IMG/VR virus record: IMGVR_UViG_3300025625_000040 | Location: 1 to 26,879 of that record | Length of the DNA stretch: 26,879 nucleotides | Reading direction: 5' to 3' (one strand) | Source of the DNA: a virus | Shown: positions 7,839 to 26,879 of the stretch, piece by piece | Layout of the letters: each line of letters starts with the position of its first letter | Position numbering within the stretch: position 1 is the stretch's first letter | The notes under the pieces: model-generated | Told to the model about the DNA's origin: nothing | Databases searched by the model: none | Seen by the model: the letters and a program-made list of their open reading frames with translations, nothing else | Made by a program: the position numbers and the translations under genes

Positions 7839-8933
7839 ATGACCGCTGCAATTATCCCGCTCAACGATCAGCTCACAGAAACCGAAGCCGCCGCCCGACG
7901 CCGCCCGGCTGACCTCCCCTGGACGACCTGGGAGAAGCTGGAAGTAATGCCCGCCGATCTGGCGCTCTTGCGAATGGAATGCCTGGATGGACAGTTGACC
8001 GCGAAGCTGCCGGGGCAGGCGCCCTACCGGGTGGCGCAGTCCTTCCTCGAAGGTCTCGGCGGGGAAACGACGTTCCCCCCGGAGTTCGTCGGGAAGCTCT
8101 CGCCGGCTCTCCAGGCGCAAATCATTAACGAGCGGCTGGACAAGACGCCGCCCCGGCTCATGTCGCTCGTGATGAACGGCGAGACGTGCGTCCGGTTCCT
8201 GCCGGGAGATCGAGCGGTGCTGCCCGCTCCCGCCGTGGCAGACCGGATTTACGACCGGCTCCTCGATCTCTATGGGGGCGTCGAAATCGACGAAGCGAAG
8301 GCGTACAACGGGGAGCACTGGCTCCGGTTCACCACCCCGTTCACGAAGGCGCTGACTGGCGAGCGGGTCCAGCTCGACCCCCAGCGCCACGAGATGCTCA
8401 AAGAGGACGTCCTCGCGCTGGGCGTGCAGGTGCGGCACGAGTTCCGGGATGGGCTGGCCGTCGAACTGCACGTCAAGCGCCTCCTCTGCTACAACTCGGC
8501 CACCTCAGTCCGGCACGCGTACTCCTGGCGCGTCAAAGAGGATCGCTCGGAAGGCGCACAGCTCGCCTGGCTTGATGACGTGATCGCCGGGCTGCCGGCG
8601 GAGTTCGACCGCTTCTTGGAGCACGGCCGCATGATGGAAGCGGAGAAGTTCGAGGGGCATCCCCGGACGGCATTACAAGCAGCAGCAAAAGCGATGAAGC
8701 TGCCGAAGCGGCTGCTGCCGGGATTGTTCGCTGCCTTCGACCAGGAGCCAGGAGACAATCATTGGGCGATCTTGCAAGCCCTGACCCGGATGGGAACGCA
8801 CGGGGATTTAGCGCCGGGGCTGCGCCGAGATCTGTGCAGGACCGCCGGAGAGTGGGTGCAAGATTTCGACATGACGACGGCTCGTTTGCCTCGCGCTCTG
8901 GCTAATAGCATTGGCGCACAAATCCTCGAATGA
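7839..8933 (+). CDS. DUF932-like phage/plasmid protein (364 aa)
   Basis: The 364-aa soluble protein has the layout of DUF932 phage/plasmid-like proteins: an N-terminal part predicted to be beta-rich (residues about 60-160, with RLMSLVMNGETCVRFLPGD), a middle region where gene-specific antigens vary, and a conserved-style C-terminal helix block NHWAILQALTRMGTHGDLAPGLRRDLCRTAGEW (about 310-343). In the family these are abundant early proteins of unknown biochemical role. TAAGGAG stands 10 bases before ATG 7839. It overlaps the homing endonuclease start by 4 bases (ATGA). The family call rests on pattern memory and could be wrong. Confidence 0.5.
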   Translation: MTAAIIPLNDQLTETEAAARRRPADLPWTTWEKLEVMPADLALLRMECLDGQLTAKLPGQAPYRVAQSFLEGLGGETTFPPEFVGKLSPALQAQIINERLDKTPPRLMSLVMNGETCVRFLPGDRAVLPAPAVADRIYDRLLDLYGGVEIDEAKAYNGEHWLRFTTPFTKALTGERVQLDPQRHEMLKEDVLALGVQVRHEFRDGLAVELHVKRLLCYNSATSVRHAYSWRVKEDRSEGAQLAWLDDVIAGLPAEFDRFLEHGRMMEAEKFEGHPRTALQAAAKAMKLPKRLLPGLFAAFDQEPGDNHWAILQALTRMGTHGDLAPGLRRDLCRTAGEWVQDFDMTTARLPRALANSIGAQILE

Positions 8934-9724
8934 ACCGGATTTATATTCTGGTGGACCCACGGACTGCCTCCGGGCGGTACGTGGGTATTACCTGTCAGAC
9001 TCTAGCGAACCGGCTCCTGGGACATATCTGCGACGCCAAGGGCAAGTGCCGCACTTACTGCAGCCGCTGGATCAGGCAGCTTCAGCAAGCGGGATGGGAG
9101 CCGGTAATGATCCTGATCGAAGAGACAGAAGATCGAAGTCGCGAGTGCTTCTGGATCGCTCATTATCGCCAGGCAGGGTTGCCGCTTACTAATCTTACTG
9201 ACGGCGGTGAAGGCACTCCGGGGTCTGTCAGGACCCCGGAGATGCGGCTTCAAATGAGCCTTGCTCGTCGGGGGCGCAAAAGACCCCCCGCCAGTGAAGC
9301 GAGAAAAGCGAAAGCTGCCCAAGGAAATAGAATCGCCTGGGCAAGGCCGGAAATGGCGGCTGTGCGAGCCCGAGTTGCTGAAGCGGCTGCTGCCCCTCGT
9401 CGCGGCAAACCCCTCTCGGAAGCGCACCGGAAAGCGATTGGAGACGCTCAACGGGGGAAGCTGGGGCATCCTTGCAGTGAAGCCACGAAACAGATTCTCT
9501 CCGAGAAAGCAAAGCATCGCCCGTTCCCAAGCGAAGAGACGCGTATCAAACTATCCGAAGCGAGCAAAAGAAAAGTGGTCACTGCTGAAATGCGCGAGAA
9601 ATGCAGAGCCGCAGCTCTTCGGTCCTGGCAGACAAGAGATCGGCCCCGCCACCGGCCAGACGGCAGTTTTGCACCAAAGGAAAAAGCCCCTCCCGGCGGT
9701 TTCATCTTGGAACCTTTTAAGTAG
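8930..9724 (+). CDS. GIY-YIG homing endonuclease with NUMOD3 repeats
   Basis: The 264-aa protein begins with a GIY-YIG nuclease domain: YIL (5-7), YVG (18-20), then the metal-binding glutamate E72 in ECFWIAHYRQAG and the family ending NLTDGGEG. It is followed by repeated NUMOD3-type DNA-binding motifs (about 110-130, 158-178, 182-216; pattern S-E-x(2)-x-K-x-S-E-A). Free-standing enzymes of this kind nick a homologous allele and copy themselves in by recombination. It starts inside the stop of the DUF932-like gene. Its last codons overlap copy 2 of the GGAACC element, so it is well embedded in the operon. No intron boundaries are visible around it. Confidence 0.9.
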   Translation: MNRIYILVDPRTASGRYVGITCQTLANRLLGHICDAKGKCRTYCSRWIRQLQQAGWEPVMILIEETEDRSRECFWIAHYRQAGLPLTNLTDGGEGTPGSVRTPEMRLQMSLARRGRKRPPASEARKAKAAQGNRIAWARPEMAAVRARVAEAAAAPRRGKPLSEAHRKAIGDAQRGKLGHPCSEATKQILSEKAKHRPFPSEETRIKLSEASKRKVVTAEMREKCRAAALRSWQTRDRPRHRPDGSFAPKEKAPPGGFILEPFK

Positions 9725-10075: not shown

Positions 10076-10261
10076 ATGAACAACGGCTTGATCGCTGCCG
10101 GCACGGCGCACGCTCTCGGCCTCGGCCCTGACCCGGCTGACTGCGAGTTCCGGGTTGAGGATGACTTTTGGATGGAAGAGGAGAGTGAGGCAGAATCGAG
10201 CAGGAGGCGTTCCGTTGACAGGTTTATTGGAGTTCCGGAGAGAGGAAGTCGCAGTGATTAA
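10076..10261 (+). CDS. Small acidic protein, paralogue of 9780-10010 (61 aa)
   Basis: ATG 10076 has a good ribosome binding site (GAGGAGAGGGG). The sequence IAAGTAHALGLGPDPADCEF followed by DDFWMEEESE aligns with the previous gene, so the two look like a tandem duplication that has diverged at the C-terminus; here the cysteine pair is lost. The end of the gene overlaps the start region of the pentapeptide-repeat protein. Function unknown. Confidence 0.55.
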   Translation: MNNGLIAAGTAHALGLGPDPADCEFRVEDDFWMEEESEAESSRRRSVDRFIGVPERGSRSD

Positions 10262-10862
10262 TCGTGACAAGATACAGCCGTATGCCGATCTGCGCGGCGC
10301 CGACCTGCGCTGCGCCGACCTGAACGACGCCGACCTGCGCTGCGCCAACCTGGGCGGCGCCAATCTGGGCGGCGCCGACCTGCGCGGCGCCGCCCTGCGC
10401 GGCGCCGACCTGCGCTGCGCCAACCTGGGCGGCGCCAATCTGGGCGGCGCCGACCTGCGCGGCGCCGACCTGCGCTGCGCCGACCTGCGCTGCGCCAACC
10501 TGGGCGGCGCCAACCTGGGCGACGCCGCCCTGAACGGCGCTCGCCTGAACGGCGCTCACCTGGATGTTGGCACCACCCTGGAGAGCGGTGAGACGTGGGG
10601 CATGTATCTCGCCGGGGAAGTGGCCGCCTTGCTCACTGCCGGCGGCCGCCCGCTGTCAGAGGTGGCGCAAAGACGCCACTGGGAGTGCCACTCGTGGTAT
10701 GACTGCCCCATGGCGGCGGCGTTTTCGGCAAGCGGCGTGGAGGAGACGCCCCTCCGGCTGCGGCCCCGCGTCGAGCAGTTCATCCGCTTTTTCGACGCGG
10801 GCTTGATCCCCATGCCGGCGTGCGATCCGGGGCGCGGGAGGGGTGCCGGCGATGAGTGCTGA
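10215..10862 (+). CDS. Pentapeptide-repeat protein with extra C-terminal domain
   Basis: About 18 consecutive pentapeptides of the form A(D/N)Lxx (residues roughly 31-122) predict a right-handed quadrilateral beta-helix. In the family this fold can mimic DNA (for example gyrase-binding proteins), but that function is not shown here. A C-terminal domain of about 90 residues follows, with HWECHSWYDCPMAAAF and a final FIRFFDAGLIP segment. TTG 10215 is preferred because AGGAGG sits 7 bases upstream; GTG 10254 is an alternative 13 residues shorter. At the DNA level two 75-base units (from 10331 and 10406) share about 62 identical bases, a sign of recent expansion. Confidence 0.8.
   Translation: MTGLLEFRREEVAVINRDKIQPYADLRGADLRCADLNDADLRCANLGGANLGGADLRGAALRGADLRCANLGGANLGGADLRGADLRCADLRCANLGGANLGDAALNGARLNGAHLDVGTTLESGETWGMYLAGEVAALLTAGGRPLSEVAQRRHWECHSWYDCPMAAAFSASGVEETPLRLRPRVEQFIRFFDAGLIPMPACDPGRGRGAGDEC
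10331..10480 (+). repeat. 75-base tandem duplication within the pentapeptide gene
   Basis: The sequence from 10331 repeats from 10406 with about 62 identical consecutive bases. The unit equals five pentapeptides, so length changes keep the reading frame and the beta-helix register. Confidence 0.7.
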
Positions 10863-25887: not shown

Positions 25888-26091
25888 CTACTGGCCGCCC
25901 GGCAGCGGCGCCGGGTTCGGCCACGGATTGTACGCTGCCTCCGGGACCGCTTTCAGCGAGGGGGGCGCGGTCGCGTCCCCGGCGAACTCATCGGGCAGCG
26001 TGCCGTCGCCGAACAGGTTCACCGGCGTCAATTCGCTCTTCAAGCTCGGCTGCGCCGCGAGGGGCGGCGCCGGCATGGACAAGTCAGTCAT
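25888..26091 (-). CDS. Proline-rich hypothetical, paralogue of 26613-26879 (67 aa)
   Basis: ATG 26091 has GGAGAAACACGCG upstream and overlaps the previous stop (CGATGA). The sequence LTPVNLFGDGTLPDEFAGDATAPPSLKAVPE matches LVPATPFSSATLTDEFVGQVTAPGLAQAQE of the gene at the right edge in order and spacing, so they share ancestry. Both are short, proline-rich and low in charge, likely extended or disordered. Their place beside the connector genes suggests a small structural or decoration protein. This is speculative. Confidence 0.55.
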   Translation of the reverse strand: MTDLSMPAPPLAAQPSLKSELTPVNLFGDGTLPDEFAGDATAPPSLKAVPEAAYNPWPNPAPLPGGQ

Positions 26092-26350
26092 CGCGTGTTT
26101 CTCCAGAGCGCCGCGCGTATTCAGTCATCGCCTCGGCGATACATTCGGTGCAGAGAAAAACGTCCTCCCCGGCGCCGCGGACGGGAGCACAGTCGAGGGC
26201 CGTCGAGAAGAGGCCGCGGACGGCGCAGCGGAAGGGAGGGCCGGTGTGGAGGGCGAGGGGAACGCCGGTGTCCCGCGCCGGCCTCGCTCCGTCAGGCGGG
26301 TCATCGGCGGCCCGGTAGCCGCCGCGCTCCCCGCTGTCCCGCGCCGCCAC
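26084..26350 (-). CDS. Small protein with degenerate zinc ribbon (88 aa)
   Basis: The start is GTG 26350, overlapping the previous TAG (TAGTG). The N-terminal 35 residues are arginine/proline-rich. The C-terminal part FRCAVRGLFSTALDCAPVRGAGEDVFLCTECIAEAMTEYA follows a phage zinc-ribbon pattern, CxxCG...C..C, but the second cysteine is arginine here (CAVRG). Zinc binding may be altered. It belongs to the tightly overlapped block around the Acb2-like gene. Function unknown. Confidence 0.55.
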   Translation of the reverse strand: MAARDSGERGGYRAADDPPDGARPARDTGVPLALHTGPPFRCAVRGLFSTALDCAPVRGAGEDVFLCTECIAEAMTEYARRSGETRDD

Positions 26351-26613
26351 TAGTCGACCACCTCCGCCTCCGGGTCGGTCAGCGCAATGGCCGCGTTGGA
26401 GAACATCGCCGCCTCTTGCAAACTGTCCAACGCCCGGCTCATCTCCTTCGTCTGCGGTAGCTCCAGCAGATAGTCGCGCAGGTCGCGGAACCGCTTCCGG
26501 TTCTCGGCCAGCCGCTTACTGCCGGACTCGCCCGGCTTGTGATAATGGAAACTGTCGCCTCTCACCCCCGTATGCCTCCTGCCGGGCCGCTCGCCCGTGG
26601 TCTCCGCGCGCAT
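26350..26613 (-). CDS. Acb2/Tad1-hairpin-like protein, candidate anti-CBASS sponge
   Basis: The 87-aa protein has the layout of the Acb2/Tad1 hairpin family of phage proteins: FHYHKPGESGSKR (residues 22-34), a long helix (ENRKRFRDLRDYLLELPQ), then TKEMSRALDSLQEAAMFSNAAIAL, where the typical motif is A-L-x-x-L-x-E-A-x-M-W-x-N-A-A-I-A. Acb2 forms hexamers that sequester the cyclic di- and trinucleotides that activate CBASS, and related proteins bind Thoeris signals. All core features appear in order. The ATG overlaps the upstream stop (TGATG) and the stop overlaps the next GTG. Small size and position among late genes suit a phage counter-defence protein. Binding is inferred. Confidence 0.7.
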   Translation of the reverse strand: MRAETTGERPGRRHTGVRGDSFHYHKPGESGSKRLAENRKRFRDLRDYLLELPQTKEMSRALDSLQEAAMFSNAAIALTDPEAEVVD

Positions 26614-26879
26614 CAGTGTTTCCCCAGCGCCGCCGTGATCGCGGCCGGCACCGGGCTCTGAAAGGGGCCGTAGGAAAGCTCTTGTTCCTGGGCCTGGGCC
26701 AGGCCGGGCGCCGTGACCTGCCCCACGAACTCATCGGTCAACGTGGCGCTGCTGAACGGCGTGGCGGGGACCAGCTCCTGCTCCACCGGCGCGTGGGGCA
26801 GGAGCGGCGGCACTTGAAAGGGGAACTCACCGGAGACGGTCCCCGTTCCCGGCTCCGGCAGCCAGTTCGGCCATGCCAT
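26613..26879 (-). CDS. Proline-rich hypothetical at the right edge, possibly partial (88 aa)
   Basis: The visible frame begins with an ATG in the last three bases of the window, so the real start may lie further right. The 88 residues (MAWPNWLPEPGTGTVSG...) are proline-rich. The C-terminal half is related to the 67-aa protein encoded at 25888-26091. Its stop overlaps the Acb2-like start. Function unknown; low-complexity structural or decoration proteins of this style occur between capsid and connector genes. Confidence 0.55.
   Translation of the reverse strand: MAWPNWLPEPGTGTVSGEFPFQVPPLLPHAPVEQELVPATPFSSATLTDEFVGQVTAPGLAQAQEQELSYGPFQSPVPAAITAALGKH

Follow-up and report, generated by a model that had tools for sequence, protein, structure and literature searches.

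A divergent Acb2/Tad1 hairpin-family protein encoded in a phage contig, a candidate sponge for a host nucleotide messenger

Tested members of the widespread Acb2/Tad1 hairpin family sequester small cyclic-nucleotide signals employed by bacteria as an alarm in their defence against phages. Known Acb2 hexamers accommodate cyclic dinucleotides in pockets lying between protomers, and trinucleotides close to the central channel (PMC12043709; PMC10419184), while Tad1, whose protomer is composed of beta1-beta4 and two helices (PMC12043709), holds gcADPR as well (PMC12043709; PMC10419184). In the Acb2 protein of phage T4, the Y8A substitution reportedly disrupts binding of cyclic dinucleotides, and the bound base has F82 stacked on it (PMC12657218). 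Proteins of cluster E mycobacteriophages have been reported as "CBASS antagonist", their role being unknown there (PMC11953737). The direct subfamily of the protein described below is made up of phrog_1454/FxYHxP-type proteins of Mycobacterium, Gordonia and Paenibacillus phages (e.g., Lily gp72), with which it has the invariant F/H/R/N/A positions in common; in the literature searched, we found no published binding test of any member of this FxYHxP branch.

The protein is encoded in a 26,879-nucleotide stretch of viral DNA (IMG/VR record IMGVR_UViG_3300025625_000040, positions 1 to 26,879; hereafter, the window), which is probably a fragment. An open frame for 87 amino acids, with an ATG start and a TAG stop, runs on the minus strand from 26613 to 26350. 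The locus contains the following features:

26613..26879, minus strand: upstream ORF, proline-rich, with a one-base overlap with the sponge start (TGATG)
26350..26613, minus strand: 87-aa Acb2/Tad1-hairpin protein, putative cyclic-nucleotide sponge (PF24729, phrog_1454, coding frame, AlphaFold2 model, VIA-align match to 9PTQ)
26530..26550, minus strand: N-terminal F22-H-Y24-H25-K-P-G28 motif, Y24 aligned with T4 Acb2 Y8
26497..26499, minus strand: R39, branch-invariant, aligned with T4 Acb2 K23
26377..26448, minus strand: helix 2, residues 56-79, with the conserved E.S.A...LQEAAMFSNAAIA segment; K56 and D63 instead of the usual R and T
26084..26350, minus strand: downstream ORF, GTG start, with a one-base overlap with the sponge stop (TAGTG)

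The FHYHKP sequence constitutes residues 22-27 of the 87-aa protein, and ALDSLQEAAMFSNAAIA constitutes residues 61-77. At the upstream junction the TGA stop and the ATG have their A in common, and one base is likewise common to the sponge ORF and the downstream GTG ORF. A GGGGA stretch is present 5′ of the sponge ATG. Ten other genes of the window served to train a codon model, in which the sponge reading frame scored +24.7 bits, with the remaining five frames of the same stretch at −17 to −84 bits; the ORF carries the same coding signature as the genes of the phage itself. The downstream ORF has a weak coding score in the same model (+2.8 bits), and the upstream ORF is possibly cut by the contig end; profile searches found no family match for either of them. 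Further genes located downstream of the sponge on the same strand include three more small ORFs, an HK97-gp10-like connector, a tail-completion gp17-like protein and a major-tail-protein-like gene. An earlier note, made from the sequence alone, had placed an ORF at exactly the coordinates found here and described it as nested by overlapping codons among late genes; both one-base overlaps and the connector, tail-completion and major-tail-like genes bear this description out.

Residues 24-77 of the protein match the Pfam family PF24729 (Acb2_Tad1_hairpin) with 33.9 bits and E 3.6e-8 (the curated cut-off is 27), and the PHROGs family phrog_1454 is matched with E 9e-11. An alignment of 61 sequences, the window protein and 60 relatives, was built from two viral-contig scans and tblastn matches. 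When a profile was made from the 60 viral relatives with the window protein left out, the latter scored 48.6 bits, and the best of 2,000 shuffles scored 8.2 bits; the family resemblance is, therefore, not due to chance. The profile of the 61-sequence alignment was compared with all PDB sequences and retrieved "Acb2 homolog 43" (9PTQ) with E 2.2e-8, Tad1 with E 0.0045 and T4 Vs.4 (Acb2) with E 0.6. The single window protein had no significant match in the PDB by phmmer, and NCBIfam and PADLOC yielded no useful match. A PilO match (Pfam E 0.029, under its cut-off) was rejected as chance. Judging by these sequence comparisons, we firmly assign the window protein to the known and widespread Acb2/Tad1 hairpin family as a divergent new member.

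In the AlphaFold2 model obtained with the 61-sequence alignment, helices 29-50 and 56-79 form a hairpin; pLDDT is 86 overall and ca. 98 in the core. Residues 1-20 (pLDDT ca. 56) are modelled without strands, short isolated strands being present only at 24-26 and 84-86, and the N-terminal four-stranded beta domain that corresponds to Tad1 beta1-beta4 is absent from the model. The top VIA-align match is 9PTQ (Z 8.7, rmsd 1.8, 68 of 72 chain residues); the next match, an unrelated one, is ca. 2 Z units lower. Since helical hairpins are a common shape, a Z of 8.7 is weak by itself; Acb2 8H2X (Z 6.0), Vs.4 7UQ2 (Z 5.7) and Tad1 7UAV (Z 5.2) all fall inside the background of such hairpins. Foldseek found no match in the PDB at E <= 0.001, with Vs.4, Acb2 and Tad1 among its weak matches, and 17 of the 20 best BFVD matches are named Acb2/Tad1 hairpin proteins. 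The predicted fold agrees with the sequence evidence and would be weak evidence if taken alone. The assignment to the Acb2/Tad1 hairpin family proposed in the earlier note is thus supported at the level of both family (PF24729) and fold: neither of the two computational outcomes named there as refuting it arose, since a search with the hairpin profile gave the significant Pfam match, and structure prediction gave a two-helix hairpin that, among solved structures, matches an Acb2 homolog best. The more specific term "Acb2-type" fits the size and the architecture, a lone hairpin without the Tad1 beta domain, but by sequence the protein falls in the FxYHxP branch, a distant relative of the tested PaMx and T4 Acb2 proteins.

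The FxYHxP branch is very large. With the family alignment, at least 501 relatives were confirmed among 600 scanned stretches of viral contigs, and tblastn with Lily gp72, the nearest annotated phage protein, retrieved 326 phage records, mainly from Mycobacterium, Paenibacillus and Gordonia phages. A tblastn match in Aeromonas phage D9 was dropped, since the gene annotated there is on the other strand. The ca. 68-aa FxYHxP hairpins of Brevibacillus phage Jenst (gp90; L017:1001-1207) and of several Paenibacillus phages are labelled "putative phosphomannomutase", which is evidently an annotation error. The window protein is 30-52% identical to its relatives over matched segments, and merely 23-35% over the 61-sequence alignment. 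With the single window protein as a query, no close relatives were found in viral contigs, nor were any found there for the downstream ORF or the tail-completion protein. In the alignment, none of the 60 relatives deviates at H25, R39, N73 or A77, position 24 is aromatic throughout, and the window protein keeps Y24, H25, R39, N73 and A77. It departs from the branch at four near-constant positions (A46->R, R56->K, T63->D and R78->L), each constant in 51 to 60 of the 60 relatives.

Profile-profile comparison of the FxYHxP branch with eight classical Acb2 proteins aligned the whole hairpin (P 5.2e-6, probability 86%). In this alignment, Y24 is placed opposite T4 Y8, and R39 is placed opposite T4 K23, which is invariant in the eight classical proteins; the aromatic residue and the cation lining up with residues of the Acb2 dinucleotide pocket are conserved. 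The T4 F82 position is occupied by A77 in the window protein. R67 of the PaMx protein, which we take to be part of the cyclic-trinucleotide site, is aligned with the arginine of the SRE/GRE sequence of the branch, i.e., with K56 of the window protein. Compared as single sequences, the window protein and T4 Vs.4 are not more similar than shuffles (292 of 2,000 as good). As in the window protein, two long antiparallel helices are present in Acb2 of Pseudomonas PaMx phages (p26, 8H2J/8IXZ) and in T4 Vs.4 (7UQ2), but the window protein is devoid of their "IKGY" N-terminal motif, and its inter-helix loop is much shorter. Tad1 (7UAV, 8KBE) shares with the family profile the hairpin and an SRE..ALT..EEA.MW.N segment; unlike Tad1, the window protein has no N-terminal beta domain. 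The best match by both sequence profile and VIA-align, 9PTQ, which contains 3'cADPR, has the same short lone hairpin, with an F..H motif followed by helix 1, and its helix 2, reading PEGREKS...LEEAMFF, has a counterpart in helix 2 of the window protein. The identity between the two is only ca. 21%, TKEMSRALD of the window protein corresponds to GREKSVFKT of 9PTQ, and the window protein has an extra disordered N-terminus.

We consider it probable that the gene encodes a stand-alone Acb2/Tad1 hairpin protein that acts, most likely, as an oligomeric stoichiometric sponge for a host nucleotide second messenger. The protein would form an oligomer (solved relatives are hexamers), which would bind a second messenger made by the host on infection, either a CBASS cyclic di- or trinucleotide or a Thoeris cyclic-ADP-ribose signal. 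With the messenger removed, the effector would not kill or arrest the cell, giving the protein an anti-defence role. Since the crystals of 9PTQ, the closest solved relative, contained 3'cADPR, a Thoeris-type signal appears as plausible a ligand as a CBASS signal.

The departures from the branch at positions 46, 56, 63 and 78 make the ligand preference unpredictable, and they are also the basis of two other readings. Judging by the sequence, the changes at R46, K56, D63 and L78 may have altered a pocket or led to its loss. It is conceivable, though unlikely, that the hairpin has been kept while drift at these sites removed one pocket (e.g., the trinucleotide site) or all ligand binding; that the affected positions are constant in nearly all or all relatives speaks for this, but Y24, H25, R39, N73 and A77 are retained, K56 preserves the charge, and codon usage resembles that of a working gene. 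Somewhat more doubtful is the possibility that the changed helix-2 ligand motif (R56->K, T63->D), together with A46->R in helix 1, marks a divergent branch of hairpin sponges which sequesters a signal unlike the known ligands of Acb2 and Tad1.

Location among late genes, beside connector and tail genes, would suit a small protein with a structural or assembly role in the head-tail module, its hairpin shape being coincidental. We regard this as improbable, since the match is one of sequence profile and not of shape alone, and since relatives from the FxYHxP branch occupy no fixed structural slot: their neighbours vary and include a serine recombinase with HicAB, a lysin, terminase, tRNAs, ThyX, a ClpP-like protease and RecA. 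Such scattered neighbourhoods are expected of an accessory gene and fit a structural component less well. The position in a late operon also has a precedent, since in Pseudomonas phage JBD67 the Acb2 homologue, gp34, has the major head protein on one side and the head-tail adaptor on the other. Least probable is a true Tad1, i.e., an anti-Thoeris protein with an N-terminal beta domain: the helix-2 segment is indeed common to Tad1, which the family profile retrieves, but the 20 N-terminal residues are predicted with low confidence and form no four-stranded sheet in the model.

With this window, a phage that is very divergent from sequenced isolates joins the many phages with an Acb2/Tad1-type hairpin gene. 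Assays of a few FxYHxP members would reveal which signals this branch removes.

The window also encodes a serine integrase and a repressor-like HTH protein, which suggest that the phage is temperate. A host search among genome contigs was carried out with two tail proteins. The first had no relative there, and the second had distant matches only, in Roseomonas, in a contig labelled as Anaplasma and in a Verrucomicrobiota MAG. In contig NZ_AFMS01000102.1, labelled Anaplasma marginale, there is a gene for a DUF2460-type phage tail protein, which is unexpected in this organism; the contig is possibly a contaminant.

Several other ORFs of the window deserve mention. A 364-aa ORF at 7839-8933 (plus strand) has no match in Pfam, PHROGs or PADLOC. 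The ORF at 8930-9724 (plus strand) is homing-endonuclease-like, with NUMOD3 over the Pfam cut-off, GIY-YIG just under it and a PHROGs homing endonuclease match with E 6.5e-15. A pentapeptide-repeat protein (Pfam E 1.4e-29) is encoded at 10155-10862 (plus strand). Finally, the proline-rich ORFs at 26613-26879 and 25888-26091 (both minus strand) are mutual paralogues (39% over 56 aa, with none of 2,000 shuffles scoring as high). They flank the sponge and the Cys-containing ORF next to it, an arrangement that looks like duplication of a block or like insertion of the sponge pair between two copies.
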